Shown: positions 560 to 56,983 of the stretch, piece after piece
Layout: each line of letters opens with the position of its first letter
How positions within the stretch are numbered: position 1 is the stretch's first letter
Assembly: GCA_033439255.1 (NCBI GenBank)
Contig: CM065879.1
Coordinates: 1,964,501 to 2,028,500 of the forward strand
Source: Hericium rajendrae
Lineage: Eukaryota; Basidiomycota; Agaricomycetes; Russulales; Hericiaceae
Length of the DNA stretch: 64,000 nt
Direction: 5' to 3'
The notes under the pieces: generated by a model
The model's input: the letters and a program-made list of their open reading frames with translations, nothing else
What the model was told of the DNA's origin: nothing
Databases searched by the model: none
Program-made: the position numbers and the translations under genes

Positions 560-2689
560 ATGTCCTGGTCATTCTCCTGGCCTGAAAATGCCCTGCTCGG
601 TGCTGGTATTCTCGCCGTCGGGGTGTGGCTTTTGAACCGAGCATCATCTCTACGGTCGACGCCTTTTCCACCCGGGCCCAGAGGATGGCCCCTTATCGGC
701 AATGTTTTCGACATGCCTTCGTCGCGAGCGCACGAAGTCTTCATGGAATGGGAGAAGACATGGGGTGCGTTGATAGTCGCGTTCCTCGCCACCGGTTCTT
801 AATCTCAAAACTAGGTGGCATTATTCATGTCAAGTTGTTCGGACAGTCGACGATCATCGTCAACTCGTTCGAAGCTGCAACAAACATGTTGGACAAGAAA
901 AGCGCGGTCTACTCTGACCGACCAGTCCTCGCGGTCGCAGGCGAGATGGTGGGTCTAAAGAATAGCTTGGTCTGCTATCCGAACGGAAGCCGACTTCGCG
1001 ATGCGCGAGCCATGTTGCATCGTTTCGTCGGCACTCGAGCGAGCATGAAGCAGTACCATTCTACGATTGAGGCGGAGATGCATCGTTTGTTGAGGCGAAT
1101 ACTCGAAAGACCAAATCCAGATGATGTGCAAAAGCACATTCGCTTGTGAGTCACTCAGTTCGCATTGACTTCACATTAGGTACTGATCAGCGACAGGACT
1201 GTCGGTGCTACCATTATGATGATTGCTCACGGCTACCGCGTGAGGGAGAAAGACGATCCTTACATTGATATAGCAGAAGTATGGAACAGAGGCTTTGCGG
1301 AGGTCATGGAGCCCGGCGCCTTCTGGGCAGATACGTTTCCCATCTGTAAGTTCGAACGATACGCAAAAACGAGTTAAAGTAAGTTGCCTTCCAGTGTTAC
1401 GTGTGCCCAGTTGGTTCCCTGGGACGTCTTGGAAAGAGCGAGCGAAGGCGGTTTCCATCGCCTTTTCGAACTTGGCTGATGTCCCGCATCAATTCGTCAA
1501 GGAGCAAATGGTCAGTCTGTGGACTGCTGCGATTGGCCATCCCGAAATCTCATTATGTCTCCAGGAAAGAGGGACTGCTATACCATCCTTCACGTCTGCC
1601 CACCTGGAGCAAGAAGGCTTTTTGTCTGAGAGGGAGATCTTGGTTAAATACGTGGCTTCTTCTATCATGGGTGGTGAGTGCATGCGACGTGCGCAAGTCG
1701 TTCCTTGGGCTAATTGAGAGACTAGCTGGTGCTGATACGGTACGCCGGACCTGTGGATACCATAATCGCACTTCTGACGTAGATCGTGATCCACAGACGG
1801 TCGGCGTTGTTTCTGCATTTTTCTTAGCGATGACACTCTACCCAGGTGTACAGCGCAGAGCACAGGCAGAACTGGACGCTGTGGTAGGCAACGATCGGCT
1901 TCCTTCTTTTGAGGACCGTGAGCGTCTCCCGTATCTTGATGCCCTCGTCAAGGAAGTCCTGCGCTGGAACCCAATTTTACCACAGGGTACGTGTGTTAGA
2001 TTGAGCGACATTGTCGAGCTTAAGCTTCGAGCTCAGGCGTGACGCACTGCACGACGGAGGACGATATTCATGATGGATACTTCATTCCCAAGGGTGCGGT
2101 CATCGTGCCCAATATATGGTATCTTCCGACTGCCGTTTGGTCGGGACCGGACATACTCCTAACTCTAAATCTAGGAAATTCTCTCGCGATGAGAGAATAT
2201 ATAAGAATGCAATGGACTTTATTCCCGAGAGATTCCTCGCCAGTGAATCGAAGGAAGCTGAACTTGATCCACTCACTTACGTCTTTGGTTTCGGGCGCAG
2301 GCGAGCCATCTCAATGACTACGACAGTGAGACTGTGCTGATACCTCGTATGAGTAGGATTTGTCCAGGTATGAAAGGGAACATGCGCACCCTCGAAGACT
2401 GACCGTTGGCGATAGGCATACAAATGGCGCTCGCGCAAGTATTCATGGCTTGTGCTATGTCGCTATCGGTTTTCGACATCTCGAAGGTCGTCCAGGATGG
2501 AAGAACGGTAGAACCACTTCAAGACTTTACAGGCAGTATGATCAGGTACATAACTCCCAAACTCGAATCCTGAATAGATGGTGAATTTCCTTGTGTTACT
2601 CTAGGCACCCAAATACGTATGAATGCTGCATCAAACCACGCTCCGAGAAAGCAATCTCGCTCATCAACCTAGCAGAATTCGCAAATTAA
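560..2689 (+). CDS. Cytochrome P450 monooxygenase, multi-exon
   Basis: A heme-thiolate monooxygenase of the microsomal fungal type, expected to sit in the ER membrane and take electrons from P450 reductase. The start at 560 opens with MSWSFSW and a hydrophobic anchor, then the proline hinge [13 protein letters not shown]. Later exons carry the ExxR of helix K (KEVLRWNP, near 1960), the PERF region (near 2225) and the heme loop FGFGRR-ICPG. The last exon has the usual C-terminal [16 protein letters not shown] pattern and stops at 2689. About ten short introns are needed. Two oddities: the heme loop is split by a probable GC-AG intron (2301-2356), and after CPG the next intron (2368-2415) seems to leave out a few residues that normally follow the cysteine. 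Fold identity is certain; substrate is unknown and function is not assured. Confidence 0.85.
2301..2356 (+). other. Probable GC-AG intron inside the P450 heme loop
   Basis: The exon before reads FGFGRR up to 2300 and the conserved ICPG follows from 2357. The 56 bases between begin GCGAGC and end GTAG, so joining the signature requires a GC donor. The length matches other introns in the gene. Confidence 0.6.
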
Positions 2690-3270
2690 CGACTTATCTC
2701 GACAAGTAGGTATGAGACTCTCCAAGTTGCGTAAATCTGCTTCGAGGACGTTCGGCCCCGGGACGTTGTGAGACAGCACTTCGTTGCGGGAACCTCTGAA
2801 TAACTTCGATAGTGGCTCACCTTGTTCGAAGCACCGTCAAATTTCTGTTAATACATATCACATATGTTGAAACGCGGAGCATGAGTGCAGATGTTACTGT
2901 AAATTTATGGAAGTTTGCTGTAGGTGAGGGTGTGGACATAGAGCAGAGTTCGCCGGGCCCTCAGACTCTGACGGTTCGGAACCGCCCGCCTGCGATAACC
3001 AGCATCTGAGCATCTTGACCTTTGACTCTTCCTGTCAGACGAGATAATCCTGAGGGACAAAGGTCGAGTCCCGTCTATTCTGCCTCTCCGAGACTACCTT
3101 TGTTACGCCTTCACGTCATCGCCCAATGACTTAATGAAGCCTCAGCTCTGGGCTTCGGCGCTCTGCGCGTTTCGCAGTCACTGACGGTCAAGAAAGAGGC
3201 CGATGCGCTGCGCACGACTTGTTGAACCTCCTGACGCACTTCAAGTCGTCCAAGAAACACAACTTCGAGG
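2690..3270. other. Intergenic region between P450 and DNA glycosylase genes
   Basis: No recognisable gene. A short open stretch at 3261-3360, in another frame, overlaps the first exon of the glycosylase. A further 5' exon of that gene could lie here, but no conserved block supports one. Confidence 0.35.
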
Positions 3271-4410
3271 ATGTCGTCACGGACGAGCGCCTCGACAGCA
3301 CTTCGAACGTCGAAGAGGCTGAAGGGGAGGGCAAAGCGCGGGTACGCCTCGTCCAAGGCGTTTACGCCTCTGCCTGATCACGTCGCCGAGAATCTCGACG
3401 GTGAATACGTTCTCTTTTCTTCGCCGTCCCGAGACTCATGCATCCGACCCCGTCCAGTCCTGTTCTGCGGTATCAAGTGAGTCCGTGCCATTCGTCAGCG
3501 AAGGCAGCTCCTAACCGCAGAAATCAAACCAGCCCGGGACGCATGACTGCGCAGCAGCGACACTACTTCGCGGGTCCCTGGAACCATTTCTGGAAATGCC
3601 TTGCGCGCTCAGGTAAGTACGCCAATTGCGAGCCTGCGCATGCGGCAGAGCTGAACGTTTCGCCAGGCCTGACGTCGCGCCTCCTGCCGGCGTCGGAGGA
3701 CTACACCCTCCCCAGCCTCTTCAACCTCGGACTAGTCCGTTCGTCTTTCCTTCTACCCGCCCGAGCTGACCACCGCCCACCCAGACCAACCTCGTACAAC
3801 GACCATCCTGCGAGGTACGCCCGATGCTTTCAAAGGATACACCCGCTCACAGGCACTCCGCGATCCAGGCAGTCCAGCTTACTGCCACCGAGATGGCGTC
3901 CTCCGTCCCCGCGCTCCTCACGAAGATCAGGCGCCTGCGCCCGCGCGTGGTGTGCTTCGTCGGCAAGCTCATGTGGGGGAACGTCGAGCGTGCACTCAAG
4001 AAGGGCGCGGTGGCCCCGCCCGGCGCAGACCAGGCGACGTCGAGCCCCAGGTCTTCCTCGCCTCCCACGCATGGGAAGGGAAAGAGGAAAGTGAGGAAAG
4101 GGAAGATGGGCAAGAAAGGCAAGAACGAGGGATATGGGCTGCAGCCGCTGAAGGTCGTGCACGATGTGGCGGAGGTAAGCAGGGACGCGTTCGATTGGGT
4201 TTTTGCGTGTTTGGGCTGATGGGTTTGCAGGACGGCGCTGTGCGGGAGACGCTGTTCTTCGTCGTGCCGAGCTCGTCTCCGCGTGTCGTTAGCCATCAGC
4301 TCGACGACAAGGTGGAGCTGTTCATGCTGCTGAAGGAGCAGGTTGATCAGGCGAAGCGGGGTGTGCTGGACACGAGTCATATGTCTGTCGTGCCCTTGGC
4401 CCCCGAGTGA
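3271..4410 (+). CDS. TDG: TDG/Mug-family G/T(U) mismatch DNA glycosylase
   Basis: Removes thymine or uracil from G/T and G/U mismatches to start nuclear base excision repair. Six exons are needed. The first carries RAKRGYA and LPDH. The second begins VLFCGI and joins across an intron to SPGRMTAQ, corresponding to the active-site GINPG block of the family. Then come HYFAGPWNHFWKCLARSG and EDYTLPSLFNLGL-TNLVQRPS, almost identical to the central block of animal TDG. RPRVVCFVGK follows, and the last exon has ETLFFVVPSSSPRVVSHQLDDKV. A basic lysine-rich insert (near 4070-4120) separates the two halves of the C-terminal region. The family usually has Asn where this protein has Ser before PG, so catalytic strength is open. 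The N-terminus is uncertain; 3271 is the first ATG in frame. Confidence 0.85.
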
Positions 4411-47534: not shown

Positions 47535-47670
47535 TCAAACACCTTCTGGCCCGTCGACGTCTGCCCTCCACACGGCAAACGAAGAGACGAACAAGTCGTC
47601 CCCGTGCCACTGCAACAGCCAGTCCACCAACTGGCGAGCCTTCGATCCAGCGTCGACAACCTTCATATAG
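47535..47670 (-). pseudogene. Severed C-terminus of phosphotransferase paralogue 1
   Basis: On the minus strand this reads YMKVVDAGSKARQLVDWLL, then QWHGDDLF and VWRADVDG, to a TGA at 47535. It matches the last exon of the intact paralogue at 58677 (YMRIVEAGSNARRLVEWLL). The rest of the gene lies 8 kb away at 55699-56983 on the same strand. The two parts share the block CCTTCATATAG / CCTCCATATAG at the break, so the mobile element between them separated them. Confidence 0.85.
47660..47670. repeat. Target-site duplication of the foldback element, left
   Basis: CCTTCATATAG, matched by CCTCCATATAG at 55688-55698 (10 of 11 identical; the last seven bases exact). The length fits the 9-11 bp duplications of Mutator-like elements. 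Confidence 0.7.
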
Positions 47671-47679
47671 GTAGATATT

Positions 47680-48064
47680 CAGTTAGACAGAATTAATCTG
47701 CGGCTGTAGTAAGGCCTGACAGAATTAATCTGTCACCTTTAGGATTAGCCACATTACGGTTCAAACCGTAACACGATCTCCCACAGTAGTACAGATCAAC
47801 TCGTAATGAAAGGTCCTGAGCCGCGTAGTCTAGCAAAACAATGTAGAGACCGAGAATCGAACCTAGGACAATTCACCGGTTCATCATGAACATAGACACA
47901 ACTAACCACTGAGCCAACGTGCTGTTGAAGTAAACATAAATTTATATCTAATGAGCCATTATTTCGCGAAAATTTCGACTTAGCAACATTTCCGTAGGTC
48001 ATAACCTGGACGGATACACTCGTAATTACAGCTTCATCTGTAAATATCAAGTTAGTGAATTATA
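47680..48064 (+). repeat. Left terminal inverted repeat of the foldback element
   Basis: Reverse complement of 55298-55682, with a handful of substitutions. It includes the complement of the tRNA-like A and B boxes (B box complement near 47852-47862). Confidence 0.85.
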
Positions 48065-48122
48065 ACCAACAAACAATAATAATGAAGAAAACCTATGGAC
48101 ACAACTTTCAAAGCTAATACTG

Positions 48123-48172
48123 ACAGATACATCTGTTCTTACAGATATATCTGTCTTGACAGATGTATCTGT
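48123..48172. repeat. Three spaced 14-bp palindromes
   Basis: ACAGATACATCTGT (48123-48136), ACAGATATATCTGT (48141-48154) and ACAGATGTATCTGT (48159-48172), each separated by four bases. The outer two are reverse complements of each other and the middle one is self-complementary. They lie at the centre of the foldback element, just left of the Ty3 insertion. Confidence 0.8.
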
Positions 48173-48185
48173 AATTTATGCCTTT

Positions 48186-48608
48186 TGTCACGGATCGCTC
48201 CATTTCTCTCCGCCTTCTTCTCTGCCATCAAGGCATCGCGTCGGTCATGTGCTCCAGCAGCCCCATCACATGTTCACTTCCTCACATGACCTGGGGCTAT
48301 CCTTCACCCATGCCCTTGTTCCCCTTTGGGACATCCTATTGTTCTCCCTCCCATTGTTCTCCTTTTGGCCACCATTGTTCTCACTCGATTGTTCGACCCG
48401 TTATGGTGTCCATTGTTCTTTTCCCATTGTCGTCCCAGTACTTATAGGCTCCCTGTCGCTCGCCTATTTCCCTAGATTGTCTATTTCGTCTGTACCGTAC
48501 TGTACCTCCAATACAGGTCACTGCGCTGCTAGTCGCTCTCTGCTCTCTCGCTCCCATCATCGCTGGTGACTTGGGTGGTTCTCTGCTGTCTACGACCGAG
48601 TCTTGACA
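48186..48608 (+). repeat. Left LTR of the Ty3 element
   Basis: 423 bp, TG...CA termini, 420 of 423 positions identical to the right LTR. It contains several copies of the motif CCATTGTTCT or close variants. Confidence 0.93.
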
Positions 48609-48649
48609 CCTGGACAATCTCTACACCCGCCTCACCTCCCTACTATTGC

Positions 48650-50834
48650 CCATCATACCTTTCTTCTTTGAACCCTTCACCGCCGACATCTTCACCGAAT
48701 CCCGACATCCATTCCATCAACCTCATCTCCCCTTTCCCATCGCCAACACCATCGAGGGTAGTGCACTCATCCCCCTCCTCTGCTATTGTGCTGTGAAGCG
48801 TTGGGAAGCCGAAGGAGTTTGGTTTCAATTGAGGTCGTGGAAACCACATGCAGGTGCTATCTCCATTGCCTTATACGTTCGAATTCGAGTTTCCTTTGAC
48901 GTCGACTTGCAAGAATTCACGTTCGGTGCCTCGGATATCGCTTACCACTGTCGCCAACCCAACCGAGGATCCCCTGCAAGTATCCTACCATCGACCTCGT
49001 TCCCCTTTTGCACACTAGGTCTCTTCACCCCCGAACCCTCACCTGAGCCTGTGTGGGCCAGAGAACGCCTCGGCCACCGATTCCTCAGAAACCCGTACTC
49101 GGACCCCCTGTACCCTCGTGCTCTTGGTCGTCGCCCAGTTGCGGCTGACTTCTTCTAGACCTCACCATTGATCCCACCGACCCCCGTTTCCAGACCACAG
49201 AACCATACCCACTCGGCGTCTTCGCCTCGCTCGACGAATACTTCATCTACACCCTTTCTGGCATCGTTCGAATAGACTTCGTCACTCCGGACGAGGACGA
49301 CGACGGTCCCGCACAGTGGTACTTCGCCGATCGTGACGACCAGGCAGACCTCGAGCTTAACGACTTCGACGTCGCAGCTACAGAACACCGTCGCCAACAC
49401 CCCGCTACCCCGCCGCTTCCCACCGTCACCCTTCCTAGTGCAGATTCTCCTCCTGCTCGCACCACCCCACTTGTCGTTCCCCCAGGTATTACCTTCAACC
49501 CGGTAACCAACAACTACTACGCATACCGCTCTGACACCAATCGGCTTGTAGTCAGTTGGAGACCCAGCCTCGTAGAAGAAAGTGACCTGTGGTTTTGGCA
49601 GGCCAGTACCCTCTTCTTAACCACTGCAGAACTCGCACTCTCTCAAGCAGTTATAGAGAATCTCGCTCAGCAACAAGCTACCCACCTCGATACCCTTCGG
49701 GCCCCACCACCACCACCTGTTTCGACGCCTACCCCAGTACCAGTCCCCTCACCTGCTCCACCCGTTGCCGCTGTTGCATCGACATCCACCGTCAACGTCA
49801 AACCAACCATTGCCACAGCCCCCCCTGTTCAGCCATCCATCGACATGTCCAACCCTGAGATCGGCGTCAAACCTGCTCCCTTTGAGGGAGATCGTTCCAA
49901 GTCCAAGGAATTCCAGCTGCGTATTCGCTTATTCCTTCGCGCCAACTCTACCCGGTATAAAGATGATACCGCCCAGATCTCCCTCTTCCTCGACCTCTGC
50001 CAGGGCCCTATCGCCGGCCAGTGGGCCACCCAGCGCGTCGAGGAGATCCTTGAGGATGACGATCTCGTGGCTGCAAAAACATCTCCAGCTCATGTTCCCC
50101 GTTACGCCAACCTCACCGCCCTTCGAACTCGCTTCAACTTGGACTTCTCTCCCCTTGACGACTCCAAGGATGCCTCCCATGCTATCCAGACCCTCCAGAT
50201 GGGTATGCGCCCGGTAGTCGACTACATCACTGAGTTTGAGTCCTTCGCCCCTCGCACCGGCTACAATGACATGGCCCTGATCGACTGGTTCCTGCATGGC
50301 CTCAACAGTGCCCTGCGCGATGATTGCCAGTGCAGCTACCCCACGCCCACCACCCTGGCTGAGTGGAAGGCGAGGGCCCGTGACAGGAATGCTGCCTACC
50401 TCATGCGCACCCGGTTCCAGAGTCCCCACCCTACAACTGGGCGCACCCCGGTGAGCACTTGCTCCCCTCAGTCCACATCTACTGGCCGATCTCGCACAGT
50501 CGCTGCTACAGGTGCCCCACTGTCCAAACTCTCGGAGCCTGACCGTGAGCGCCTCAGGTGTGAGAGCGGTTGCTTCCGCTGCCGCCAGAAGGGCCATGGC
50601 TTCCGCGACTGCCCCCTCAATGCCGACTCCAACCCCCGTGCCCCAACCCCTCGTGTCCGAGCGCTAGAAACCGGCTCTGCCCCGGGAGTAGCTCCAGAAG
50701 ATGCAGCCGCCGCCCTCGCTGTCCCCGCCATCAACAGGTCCATCGCCGACTTATCGTCGCAGTTGAAGGACTTGAGCGAGGAAGAGAGGGAAGAGGCAAA
50801 GGCTGCATTAAAGGATATGGTTGAGGGTTTTTAA
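48650..50834 (+). other. gag region of the Ty3 element
   Basis: Capsid-type region with a Pro-rich stretch, a retrotransposon gag block (FEGDRSKSKEFQLRIRLF) and a CCHC zinc knuckle (CFRCRQKGHGFRDCP) near 50570-50620. Boundaries are approximate at the 5' side. Confidence 0.85.
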
Positions 50835-50859
50835 AGCGCCCCCCGGTCACGTCGTCCGT

Positions 50860-53800
50860 GGGTGGCAAGAAACATTTCTTTGATCCGTCGAATCGCTTCT
50901 CTGTACTATCCGACCCCTGTGAGCAATCGTATCCATCGTCTTTGCGCATGTCCGCTATCACACCCAACCGTCAGACACCGTCCATTATGCTCCAGGCCAA
51001 GATTATCACTGCCCCGATCAAGAAACAAATCGACACTGAGGCACTTCTCGATAGTGGTGCAGAAGGCATTATTATGCACCCCGAGTTTGCCAAGAAACAC
51101 CAGTTCCCCCTCAAGAAACTCCCTAAACCCTTTCCCGTTCGCAACGTGGACAACTCCAAAAACATCATGGGCTGGGTCCGCTATTCCGTCAACCAGAACA
51201 TCCGCATTTACGCCAAGGACTCAACGTCCTTCCATGAGGAGACAGCTGAGTTCTATCTCGTTGATATTGGCGACTATGACATTATCCTTGGGACCGATTG
51301 GTTACAGGAACACAACCCTGAAATTGATTGGGTCTCTCGTCGTGTTGACATGACTCGCTGCCCTCCCTCTTGCACCCTGAATAAGCCCCCGGTCAAAAAC
51401 CTGTCCACTCGCTCAGAACGCCGCCAATCAGCCCCTCGTCCACCAGTCCTCAGTACCGCTGCTGTACTGCTCCCCCCACCTTGCCCCCTCCATTGCTCCC
51501 ACTGCCCCCGCCATTTGTTCCTGCCCCACTTTCCAAATACGTGATCCCTGCTCGCCGAGTCCAAGGTGTCCGTCTTCGCCGCATCCACCTGTCCAAAGTC
51601 CCTGCACGTCTGTTTACCGAGGATGATGACCCGCGACCTAACGTCGATGATGACTGGGTTGAAGAGGGTCTTCGCCTAGCTGGTGTTCTCCCTGACTGGG
51701 ACACACCACCCCCTCCAGATGACGACCCAGACTACCAACATACCATCCGTATCCGTCGCTCTTTCACCAATGCTCAGAAACTGGCTGAGCGTGTGGCCGC
51801 CCATGTTGCGGAGAAGTCCTTTGCTGAGATGGTTCCCCCTCAGTACCAGGATTTCCAACCCGTCTTCGATGAGGAATCCTCCCATCGCCTTCCTGAACGT
51901 CGCCCTTGGGATCACGCCATCGACCTGAAAGATGGTTTTGAACCCCGTTCATGCAAGGTCTATCCCATGGCTCCCACTGAGCAGGAGGACCTCGATTCGT
52001 TCCTTGATGACCAGGTCAAAAAAGGCTACATCCGTCCTTCCAAATTCCCTATGGCGAGTCCCTTCTTCTTTATCAAGAAAAAAGATGGAAAACTACGCCC
52101 CGTCCAGGACTATCGCACCCTCAACAAGGGCACCATCAAGAATGAATATCCCCTGCCCCTCATCTCTGAACTCATTGACAAGCTCAAGGGTGCCAAAGTC
52201 TTCTCCAAGATGGACGTTCGTTGGGGTTACAACAACGTTCGCATCAAGGAGGGCGACGAATGGAAAGCCGCCTTCAAAACCAACCGCGGTCTCTTTGAAC
52301 CCCTGGTGATGTTTTTTGGTCTTACAAACTCCCCTGCCACGTTCCAAGGAATGATGAATGAACTTTTCAAGGATCTCATTGACACAGGCAAAGTCGTCAT
52401 CTACATGGACGATATCCTCATTTTCACCGAAACCCTCGAAGAACATCGCGACCTTGTGCGCAAGGTCCTCCAACGCCTCCAGGACAATGACCTCTTCCTC
52501 AAACCAGAGAAGTGCTCTTTCGAGCAGCCCTCCGTTGAGTTCCTCGGTCTCATCGTCTCCCATAACACGCTTGCCATGGACCCCGTCAAGGTTGCAGGCA
52601 TCGCTGAATGGCCTGCCCCGTAACGTCAAGGATGTCCAGTCCTTTGTTGGCTTTGGCAACTTCTATCGACGCTTCATCCAGGACTTCTCCAAAGTCGCCC
52701 GTCCCATGTTTGACCTTACCAAGAAAGACCATCCTTGGGCCTGGTCTGCTGAATGTCAACATGCCTTTGAGGCTCTTAAAGCTGCGTTCACCTCGTCCCC
52801 AGTCCTTATCATGCCTGACCCGTCCAAACCCTACTTGGTTGAGGTCGATGCCTCAGACTATGCCACAGGAGGTATCCTATCCCAGCGCGGGGAGGACGAG
52901 CAATGGCACCCTGTTGCTTACATCTCCAAGGCCTTCACTGCCCCTGAACGCAACTACGACATTTATGACAAGGAACTCCTGGCCATCATCCGTGCCCTCG
53001 AAGCCTGGCGCCACTACCTGGAAGGCTCTCTCCATACTGTGGAGATCTGGACCGACCATAAGAACCTGGAATACTTCAAGTCTGCCCAAAAGCTGAGTCA
53101 TCGTCAGGCTCGCTGGGCTCTCTTCCTCACTCGTTTCGACTTCACCTTGATCCACAAACCCAGTATTCATCACCGGCCAGATGCCATGTCGAGACGACCT
53201 GACCATAGAGAGGGGGTGAACGACGACAACTCAGATCGTGTCCTCCTCGACCCCAAGTACTTCCAGATTCGTGCTACACGTCCAGCCGCTGTCAAGTCCA
53301 TTGGCAATGCTGATCTTCGCCAACGCATTCGCAATGCCAAGACCAAGGATATTGAGGTCGTTCAAGCCCTTGACGTGATCCTGAACAACGGTCCTCGCTC
53401 CCTCGTCAAGAACCTCCAAGAATGGAACTACGAGGATGGCCTCATCCTCTTTCGTGGCAAAGTCTACATCTCTGCTGACAAGGACCTTCGGCGAGATATC
53501 GTCAAGCTGCATCACGACACTCCCATGGCTGGTCACCCCGGACGCTACAAGACCTATGAGCTCCTCAGTCGCAACTACTGGTGGCCCGGTATGTCTGTCT
53601 TCGTTCGTGATTATGTGATGGCTGTGCTACCTGCCAGGCCACCAAGGTTCAAAATCACCGCCCCCATGTTGAAACAATCCCCAATGCCATCCCTACCCGT
53701 CCCTTCCAAGACATTACCTCGGACTTCATCGTCAAACTCCCAGAATGCCAAGGCTATGACTCCATCAACGTGGTCGTCGACCGTTTTACAAAGCACGTCT

Positions 53801-54830
53801 CCTTCACTCCTTGTAACGAGACCATTACCAGTGATGGCACAGTCGACATCCTTTTTGACAGGATTTATCGGAACTACGGCCTCTGGGAACGCCTCATCTC
53901 TGATCGTGGCCCACAGTACGCAGGCAAAGTCATGCGTGGCGTCTTTGACAAACTTGGTATCAAGTCCTCCCTCAGCACCACCTATCATCCACAGACCGAT
54001 GGCGAGTCAGAACGCGTCAATCAAGAACTCGAGCAGTTCCTTCGTACCTTCTGCAACTACCGTCAGGATGATTGGGTCCAATGGCTCCCTTACGCTGAGT
54101 TCTCGCACAACCACCGTATCCACAGCGCCACTAACCGAGCTCCATTTGAAATGCTCCTTGGCTATATTCCCACTGCCATCCCCACTGTCAACCCCACATC
54201 GTCTACACCCGCCATCGAGGATCGTTTCCGTCACCTCGAACAACTTCGCACTGAGGTCCAGGCCAGCCTTCAAACAGCTGCTGATCTCATGAAGCGCAAC
54301 AACCAGGACCATATGCACGACACCATCCACTTCCAGGTTGGCGACAAGGTCTGGCTCGATGGCAAGAACATCAAAACCACACGACCCAAAGCTAAGCTTG
54401 CTGATCGACGCCTGGGACCTTTCGAAATCACTGACATCCTGGGCCCAGTCTCTTATCGACTGAAGCTACCACCCACCTGGCGTATCCACCCGGTGTTCCA
54501 CACGTCCCTGTTGTCCCCTTACAAGGAAACCGATGCTCATGGTCCCAACTTCCCTGCACCACCACCTGACCTTGTGGAGGGTGAGGAAGAGTACGAAGTT
54601 GAGTCTGTCCTCGATGCTCGTCTCACTCGGAACAAACGTGGCATTGAATATCTCGTCAAATGGGCAGGCTACCCTGATTCAGAAAATCAGTGGCTTTCAC
54701 GTACCTCCCTTTCCAATGCCCATGGTGCAATCACCGACTTCTACACCCGCCATCCGCATGCACTCAAGGCTCCCAATCTTCGTGGACTCATCTACCTCGA
54801 TCCCGTCCATGCTCATCACGCACTCCAGGC
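50860..54830 (+). other. pol region of the Ty3 element
   Basis: In order, with approximate spans: aspartic protease (LLDSGAEG, about 51.0-51.3 kb), reverse transcriptase including the YMDDILIF block (51.9-52.6 kb), RNase H (52.8-53.2 kb), integrase with the HHCC-like and catalytic core parts (53.4-54.4 kb), and a chromodomain (YLVKWAGYPDSENQW, about 54.6-54.75 kb). The chromodomain places it among chromoviruses, which are thought to target heterochromatin. The region is broken. Confidence 0.85.
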
Positions 54831-54856
54831 GAAAGTGCGTCTTAGAGAGGGGGTGA

Positions 54857-55279
54857 TGTCACGGATCACTCCATTTCTCTCCGCCTTCTTCTCTGCCATC
54901 AAGGCATCGCGTCGGTCATGTGCTCCAGCAGCCCCATCACATGTTCACTTCCTCACATGACCTGGGGCTATCCTTCACCCATGCCCTTGTTCCCCTTTGG
55001 GACATCCTATTGTTCTCCCTCCCATTGTTCTCCTTTTGGCCACCATTGTTCTCACTCGATTGTTCGACCCGTTATGGTGTCCATTGTTCTTTTCCCATTG
55101 TCGTCCCAGTACTTATAGGCTCCCTGTCGCTCGCCTATTTCCCTAGATTGTCCATTTCGTCTGTACCATACTGTACCTCCAATACAGGTCACTGCGCTGC
55201 TAGTCGCTCTCTGCTCTCTCGCTCCCATCATCGCTGGTGACTTGGGTGGTTCTCTGCTGTCTACGACCGAGTCTTGACA
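54857..55279 (+). repeat. Right LTR of the Ty3 element
   Basis: 423 bp, preceded by the purine tract AGAGAGGGGGTGA. Confidence 0.93.
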
Positions 55280-55297
55280 CCTTTATTGTTCATCACA

Positions 55298-55682
55298 TAT
55301 AATTCACTCACTTGATATTTACGGATAAAGCTGTAATTACGAGTGTATCCGTCCAGGTTATGACCTACGGAAATGTTGCTAAGTCAAAATTTTCGCGAAA
55401 TAATGGCTCATTAGATATAAATTTATGTTTACTTCAACAGCATGTTGGCTCAGTGGTTAGTTGTGTCTATGTTCATGATGAACTGGTGAATTGTCCTAGG
55501 TTCGATTCTCGGTCTCTACATTGTTTTGCTAGACTACGCGGCTCAGGACCTTTCATTACGAGTTGATCTGTACTACTGTGGGAGATCGTGTTACGGTTTG
55601 AACCGTAATGTGGCTAATCCTAAAGGTGACAGATTAATTCTGTCAGGCCTTACTACAGCCGCAGATTAATTCTGTCTAACTG
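55298..55682 (+). repeat. Right terminal inverted repeat of the foldback element
   Basis: Inverted copy of 47680-48064. On this strand the tRNA-like A box TGGCTCAGTGG is at 55446-55456 and the B box GGTTCGATTCT at 55499-55509. Confidence 0.85.
55446..55509 (+). other. tRNA-like segment with RNA polymerase III A and B boxes
   Basis: TGGCTCAGTGG followed 53 bases later by GGTTCGATTCT fits the internal promoter of a tRNA gene. A T-arm of four of five pairs can be drawn, but the expected acceptor stem does not pair, so this is a tRNA-derived remnant and not a functional tRNA. Confidence 0.5.
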
Positions 55683-55687
55683 AACTG

Positions 55688-55698
55688 CCTCCATATAG
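55688..55698. repeat. Target-site duplication of the foldback element, right
   Basis: CCTCCATATAG, partner of 47660-47670. Confidence 0.7.
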
Positions 55699-56983
55699 CC
55701 CGGGTCAAGCGCAGTAACGCTCTGCATCGTGATTAGCTTTTGAATGCAATAGTTAACAAAATCAACACCCACCTCGGCGAAGATCTTCCTATATTCCGCG
55801 GCATCTTCAGCCAACTCAGCCCATCCCCGCGAGCACATCACGCCATCCAAGCACATGGGGGCGAATCGCCTGTCGAGTATCCCCTCGTCGACCAGCCAAG
55901 CGGGACAGTCGAGCGCAAGAAACGCGGGCACAACAGCGTGGAAGTCCCAGCCTAGGATCGCATGGATATGGCCCTCTTCCGACAAAATGTTCCCCATTGA
56001 GCAGATGGCTCGCATGAGGGTCGGGCGCCACAAGCGACCGTCATTGGAGGATTCTGCAGAGGGTGCGAGACGCTCAGCTAGAGCGAGGATGCCTTGCAGC
56101 TCTTTGCATGGCTTGGTCACCGTAATCTGTTCGGCGCGCTCCACGAGATGCGACACGTAAGCCTGGTAGGTCGCAAATGGGCCTACTGCATGCCTCGGGC
56201 CGACCTCGTAGCCTGGGATGAAGAGCGGCCCTATCTCCACAGACTGAGAAGTAGCGTCGAAAGCAAGTACACTCCCTATAGGTGCGGAGCTCGGGAGAGG
56301 AACCCGGGCAAGCTGCACGCTTATGTTCGCAAACTCGTGCAGCATGCGGAGCTGTTGAGAGTTGTTACTGTCAGTTCAATAGAACATCGTTATGCCAGAG
56401 TATCGAACAAACCTTAGTATCCTTGGTGGTTCCAAGCCTATCCCACTCACGAACGCCCCTGCATTTCTCCTGGAGCATCCAAGGTGGGCCATCTCGCACG
56501 CTCGGTTCGGACTGGGCCGTAGAGTACGAGAAGCAGCGGGGGACAGGAAAATTCGCGTGGCGTAAGAGAGATATCACCGCTACTTCACTCAGAACCTGGC
56601 GAGAACAGTGCTCCTGGCCTAACAGATCGATGGTCCATTGATTCGGAAGACGCGCTACGAATGAGATTTTGGAGTCTCCACGTCAGAGCGAAGTTCATAG
56701 GCCTGGGAGTTTGTGCGGCACGTCAGTGAACTGGCCTCTGAGGTAATACGGTCATACGTACGTCGTGATACCCGTCGGCAGAAGAGATCTGCTGTACCTC
56801 TACGATTCTGCGCCCGCCACAGAACTGCTCTGCGACTTTGCAAAGACAGACGAGGTCGAAGTTGAGGCCGTCTAGCTTGGTAACGTCTCCTGGAAACGTG
56901 AAGACGGGGTCGCTGGGGGGCTGGACGTCGATAGTGATAGCTGTTCCATCTCGTTCGAAGAGTCTCCACTGATAGGCGGGCAT
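55699..56983 (-). pseudogene. Phosphotransferase (APH-fold) paralogue 1, main part, decayed
   Basis: The minus strand starts at 56983 with MPAYQWRLFERDG. It includes LVCLCKVAEQFCGG, the GYHD exon end, then CFSYSTAQSEPSVRDGPPWML, MLHEFANISVQLARVP and FHAVVPAFLALDCPAWLVDEG, with SVTALDPGYMEAV at the break near 55700. It matches the intact paralogue at 58677-60137 exon by exon. Three kinds of damage are seen. There is a one-base loss after YELRSDV (near 56685) relative to the paralogue. The catalytic block HGDLDPNNIL is replaced by RAICSMGNIL, and VLDWE by ILGWD. The last exon is cut off by the mobile-element insertion. The loss of catalytic residues suggests that decay began before or soon after the insertion. 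Confidence 0.85.

Follow-up and report, generated by a model that had tools for sequence, protein, structure and literature searches.

Nested insertions in an APH-like gene

A 64,000-nucleotide stretch of the genome of the basidiomycete Hericium rajendrae (hereafter the window; G000:C2:1964501-2028500, within a searched genome of 46.8 Mb on 19 contigs) carries a minus-strand APH-like gene, that is, one resembling a phosphotransferase, whose two pieces are separated by some 8 kb of mobile DNA. A foldback element lies within the gene, a Ty3 chromovirus lies within the foldback element, and this three-layer nest is real. In window positions, the locus comprises the following features.

47535..47670, minus strand: C-terminal end of the host gene, including the stop codon; 42 of 44 residues identical to residues 313-356 of Hericium alpestre protein P0001
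47664..47670: left copy of the target duplication CATATAG, exact over 7 bp
47671..48185, minus strand: left part of the foldback, with non-inverted end GTAGATA (47671-47677), B arm (47678-48079) and central spacer
47854..47916, minus strand: tRNA-like A and B boxes of the left arm, directed outward and followed by TTTT
48181..48185: CCTTT, left-hand member of the 5-bp duplication
48186..55279, plus strand: Ty3 chromovirus, whole element, inside the foldback spacer
48186..48608, plus strand: left long terminal repeat (LTR), 423 bp
49845..50834, plus strand: Ty3 gag (PF03732)
50858..51544, plus strand: Ty3 aspartic protease (PF08284)
51481..52623, plus strand: Ty3 reverse transcriptase (PF00078), where the open frame stops
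52625..53620, plus strand: RNase H together with the beginning of integrase (PF17917, PF17921), in a different frame
53770..54960, plus strand: integrase core (PF00665), SH3-like domain (PF24626) and chromodomain (PF00385), in a different frame
54857..55279, plus strand: right LTR, 423 bp, differing from the left one at 3 sites
55280..55284: CCTTT, right-hand member of the 5-bp duplication
55280..55691, minus strand: right part of the foldback, with the second CCTTT and arm start, A arm (55283-55684) and non-inverted end CTGCCTC (55685-55691)
55446..55508, plus strand: tRNA-like A and B boxes of the right arm (the motif of a type 2 RNA polymerase III promoter), directed outward with TTTT downstream
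55692..55698: right copy of the target duplication CATATAG, exact over 7 bp
55699..56983, minus strand: main body of the host gene, several exons, cut on its 3' side by the foldback; matches H. alpestre P0001

Each level of the nest is bounded by its own exact duplication. The foldback is flanked by the 7-mer CATATAG, and not by the imperfect 11-bp target duplication put forward in an earlier, sequence-only reading of this DNA; that longer duplication is the exact 7-mer extended into the non-inverted ends of the element, whose bases there (GAGG) resemble the target by chance. The same reading had proposed a Ty3 chromovirus with an exact 5-bp duplication inside the foldback, and CCTTT does stand on each side of the LTR element. 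Its claim that a single minus-strand gene has been cut in two is likewise borne out, each piece matching a different part of P0001, and the comparison with a related genome that it had suggested shows the H. alpestre product to be uninterrupted at the insertion point: at the protein level, GYMKVV is unbroken where the window has 8 kb. The nesting, both duplications and the uninterrupted relative support an order of events in which the gene came first, then the foldback, then Ty3. As a nested insertion the locus is ordinary, with a foldback family of mild interest, and it provides a clean example for which an uninterrupted relative is known.

The foldback element and its family

The window foldback extends from 47671 to 55691, including Ty3 and 7 non-inverted bases at each end, and would measure about 920 bp without the retrotransposon. 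The inverted repeats anticipated by the sequence-only reading are present as two arms of 402 nt, roughly 400 bp each, with 97% complementarity around a spacer of about 105 bp, but they stop 7 bp short of the ends of the element, the outermost 7 bp being not inverted and reading GAGGCAG at one end and TATCTAC at the other. Long inverted repeats, a short centre, a duplication of fixed length and the lack of a transposase frame identify the element as a foldback, or long-arm miniature inverted-repeat transposable element. In the window copy, ACAGAATTAATCTG occurs twice in the outer repeat of each arm, and three ACAGAT..ATCTGT sites lie in the spacer; both motifs could be transposase sites. In L028, an uninterrupted copy, as in the window copy, the longest frame inside the arms encodes 84 amino acids from a TTG start, one frame lying in each arm (window 47796-48050, minus strand, and 55312-55566, plus strand; L028 2150-2404, minus strand, and 2567-2821, plus strand). 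These frames overlap the tRNA-like boxes and are probably due to chance.

A genome search with one arm returned 26 matches, which group into 13 loci: 10 two-ended copies, the window copy included, two one-ended copies (L035 and L037) and a single 93-bp fragment (L038). The ends GAGGCAG and TATCTAC, outside the inverted repeat, are found in all 10 two-ended copies, and each one-ended copy is one base off TATCTAC. Exact 7-bp duplications flank nine of the 10 two-ended copies (CATATAG in the window, and CAAGCTT, ACCCTCG, GCTTTCC, ACTGGCT, TGGCCGG, CTCCTGG, CGGGAAG and GGTCCCA elsewhere), and eight of the 10 are uninterrupted, with lengths of 917-954 bp. The family is small and non-autonomous, its frames being too short to encode a transposase. 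No description of it was recognised among the listed results of searches of open-licence papers. For the congener H. coralloides, an excerpt of the genome report gives a total of 466 DNA transposons and mentions MULE, Novosib, PIF-Harbinger, PiggyBac, TcMar and Maverick, with no foldback named in that excerpt (PMC8820905).

Two members of the family carry rearrangements of their own. The foldback at L034 (G000:C10:266400-272300) is broken by two inserts, at about 2300-2869 and 3481-3810, the second being a short element whose ends are inverted (AGGCAGGCGAAATACAAAAGC) and whose flanks are consistent with a TA duplication. L027 (G000:C2:1754300-1759300), a close relative of the window foldback located about 255 kb away on the same contig, has its 39-bp outer end repeated on one side, at about 2908-2946.

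Arm divergence and the timing of insertion

The sequence-only reading had also dated the two insertions from repeat divergence. Its figures are close to those obtained here, the outer part of the window arms differing by 6 substitutions in 387 aligned sites and the LTRs by 3 in 423 (0.71%), but the use of arm divergence as a date of insertion fails. Three of the six arm differences are common, side for side, to both relatives L027 and L034, and because they are shared in this way they predate the insertion. One further difference agrees side for side with L027 and is swapped in L034; for another, the base of the window A arm is present in the B arm of L027; and the sixth is absent from both relatives and present in other copies. 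No base is private to just one window arm, and one base is private to both arms. At least half of the divergence between the window arms, and perhaps nearly all of it, is therefore either older than the insertion or exchanged between arms.

The arms of other copies point to the same conclusion. In a tree of arm sequences, the two arms of a single element are sisters in L028, L030, L031, L033 and L036 (support 0.85-0.99), and for eight of 10 A arms the top-ranked B arm is that of the same element. The spacer is reversed relative to the ends in two of the 11 copies whose orientation could be read (L031 and L035). Because old differences have been inherited, and because some members of the family have had their two arms homogenised, arm divergence cannot serve as a valid clock, and it was ruled out as a measure of the time of insertion. 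On these divergences the foldback and Ty3 insertions cannot be told apart in age, and their order is given by nesting alone. The window copy thus serves as an example of how arm-to-arm divergence of a foldback element fails as an insertion clock.

By comparison, all three LTR differences (window 48197, 48482 and 48497) are C-to-T or G-to-A changes and arose within the window copy, since the other base is present in all 29 other LTR loci fetched, out of 42 listed matches.

The interrupted host gene

The C-terminal piece of the host gene aligns with P0001 as listed above, and the main piece is identical to P0001 residues 175-258 at 72 of 84 positions. Among 645 candidates, the sole protein to pass an E value of 0.001 for the main piece comes from H. 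alpestre, a member of the order Russulales. The phosphotransferase label given by the sequence-only reading stands through the paralogue P0002 only, which matches PF01636 and shares 49% identity with P0001 in BLASTP and 60% in a multiple alignment; a 216-residue piece of the window gene matched no Pfam family at E values up to 0.01, and P0001 matched none at E values up to 1. By sequence, the host gene is APH-like solely via its homology to this paralogue.

The HGD..N catalytic loop and the DW motif are present in P0002 and are not whole at the aligned places of the window gene. The reading of the window gene also shifts frame upstream of the insertion relative to P0001. Because of the incomplete motifs and the change of frame, kinase activity is improbable for the window gene, irrespective of the insertion. 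The annotated P0001 is entirely without the catalytic stretch, which may reflect a gap in the gene model.

The Ty3 chromovirus

The retrotransposon within the spacer has the LTRs, the order of protease, reverse transcriptase, RNase H and integrase, the chromodomain and the 5-bp duplication of a Ty3 chromovirus, although the integrase core match to PF00665 (E value 1.1e-6) scores 29.2 bits against a curated cut-off of 32.6. It shares LTRs, gag, protease, reverse transcriptase, RNase H, integrase, chromodomain and the 5-bp duplication with fungal Ty3 chromoviruses in general; no difference was noted, and the window copy is an ordinary member with interrupted reading frames. Its coding domains are spread over several frames, so that the window copy is no longer intact.

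Its LTRs belong to a large family: of 396 first-look candidates, the 40 that were scored yielded 42 listed matches. Two foldback remnants adjoin LTRs of this same family. At L038 (1566-2096), a full LTR (97.6%) lies against the remnant, whose arm sequence begins at the LTR end, and at L035 (2104-2619) the neighbouring LTR is partial (93.7%).

Candidate sources of transposase

The foldback family can be set against known elements with duplications of similar length, as described in excerpts of the cited reports. Kyakuja, a KDZ element of Agaricomycotina reported from Russulales, the order of Hericium, resembles the foldback in making 7-bp duplications (exact here in nine of 10 copies) and in having no terminal inverted repeats (PMC12730594). 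KDZ domains are abundant in this genome, with at least 172 matches to PF18758, where one gene may account for more than one match. Kyakuja differs in its CA..TG ends and in possessing a transposase, whereas the foldback has G..C ends (GAGGCAG..TATCTAC), long sub-terminal inverted repeats and no transposase. Duplications of 7 bp are also described for hAT7 (PMC12730594) and for Galileo (PMC2775673), the latter a Foldback-like element with long inverted repeats and, in some copies, non-matching 7-bp flanks (PMC3573991). Galileo, a P-superfamily element of Drosophila, therefore shares with the present family its long inverted repeats, its 7-bp duplications and its mismatched flanks in some copies (here, in part, L033). 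The inverted repeats of Galileo reach the very ends of the element, whereas in the fungal family the outer 7 bp are non-inverted. The P-type transposase domain PF21787 gave no match in the genome and none in 14 controls either. Dada is similar in its duplications of 6-7 bp and in inverted repeats that are short and sub-terminal rather than terminal (PMC3706591), but it targets small RNA genes and its sub-terminal repeats measure 7-9 bp, as opposed to a protein-coding exon (for the window copy) and repeats of about 400 bp here.

Within the H. rajendrae genome, the hAT dimer domain has 33 matches and the MULE domain six, none of them linked to foldback ends. PF18758 loci include L069-L078, some of which are near-identical (L069 and L070, for instance, at 99% over 3.9 kb); L082 and L083 can be aligned over their full 3.5 kb, and one boundary of L072 with L076 yielded no usable end. 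A Kyakuja-like helper is plausible because of the 7-bp duplication and the abundance of KDZ domains, and a KDZ transposase of this kind would be the likeliest single candidate, a suggestion put forward tentatively and with somewhat less than even confidence. Small and well defined, the foldback family lends itself to the question of which transposase in fungi generates duplications of 7 bp on elements that lack inverted ends.

Proposed origin of the nest

The observations are very probably explained as follows. A non-autonomous foldback DNA transposon would have entered the last coding part of the APH-like gene, duplicating 7 bp, and a Ty3 chromovirus would then have entered the foldback spacer, duplicating 5 bp. 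The foldback family would be mobilised in trans by a DDE-type transposase that makes 7-bp duplications. In many elements the two arms are kept similar by exchange between them, presumably recombination or conversion, which at times also inverts the centre. A more ambitious version, in which a foldback with 7-bp duplications, non-inverted ends, outward RNA polymerase III promoters and mutually rewritten arms is mobilised by KDZ transposases and constitutes the first foldback partner of that group, is doubtful.

Several observations weigh against parts of this explanation. The flanks of L033 agree at just 5 of 7 positions. The mean A-to-B arm distance is 0.024 within elements and 0.065 between them, a contrast that 100,000 random pairings among the 10 two-ended elements never attained, but random pairing also splits subfamilies, so that the permutation test on its own overstates arm homogenisation, and the case for homogenisation rests on the tree instead. 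In that tree, the arms of the window copy, L027 and L034, and those of L029 and L032, group by side, and homogenisation has thus not been continuous. Nor was an autonomous partner sharing the foldback ends found: a search with the 21-base end, allowing 2 mismatches or fewer, hit 22 sites, each of them in a known copy, and a search with a 14-base end added one exact match, unpaired and otherwise unrelated, and nine one-mismatch matches, fewer than the 14 in a reversed-pattern control, with three of these 10 places inspected. Finally, the G..C ends are not the CA..TG of Kyakuja.

tRNA-like boxes and alternative origins

Each arm of the window copy contains an A box and a B box, identified by their consensus, that span 63 nt end to end at tRNA-like spacing and are followed by TTTT. 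The pattern occurs nowhere else in the window, and not once in 20 million bases, on one strand, of random sequence with the dinucleotide make-up of the element. These boxes are proposed as putative promoters from which RNA polymerase III might transcribe the arms. A genuine tRNA gene in the arms was considered and rejected, ARAGORN reporting none at its default setting and weak matches only with the threshold lowered to 60% or less. Matches of the foldback centre to microRNA families fell far below curated cut-offs and were read as an effect of the palindrome.

The boxes lend themselves to another reading, in which the arms are two opposed tRNA-derived short interspersed nuclear elements spread by retrotransposition. 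In line with it, when the box stretch was compared with 20 tRNA genes fetched of 58 listed, the best alignment was to the intron-bearing host tRNA-Ile (UAU), with a score of 21, as against 14.5 or less in 200 shuffles for that gene and a maximum of 18 over all 4,000 shuffles. The tRNA-Ile (AAU) also scored above its 200 shuffles, but for each of the remaining 18 genes the score was equalled or exceeded in at least one shuffle, and a tRNA family model found no match in L028 at E values up to 10 or in the window stretch at E values up to 1. The constant ends and the exact duplications in nine of 10 copies fit a DNA transposase, and lone arms were not seen to occur as repeats in their own right: a foldback end is present in L035 and in L037, and L038 is a short fragment. 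A retrotransposed origin of the arms is accordingly improbable.

Transposition of a foldback into the gene, followed by Ty3, must also be weighed against the movement of a ready-made composite, in which Ty3 entered the foldback elsewhere and the 8-kb composite then moved into the gene as one unit, leaving a single event at this locus. The outer 7-bp duplication does surround the entire composite, and divergence does not separate the two insertions. However, none of the other 12 foldback loci was seen to be a composite of this kind, with an LTR element in the corresponding place of the spacer, and of the two-ended copies eight are uninterrupted and a ninth, L034, has two different inserts, which makes such a move very improbable. 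Near-perfect palindromes are prone to misassembly, but an assembly artefact, or a chance pairing of unrelated gene pieces, can be set aside as scarcely credible given that the orthologue P0001 is contiguous, the duplications are exact at both levels, and the arms differ at several sites, as do the LTRs.

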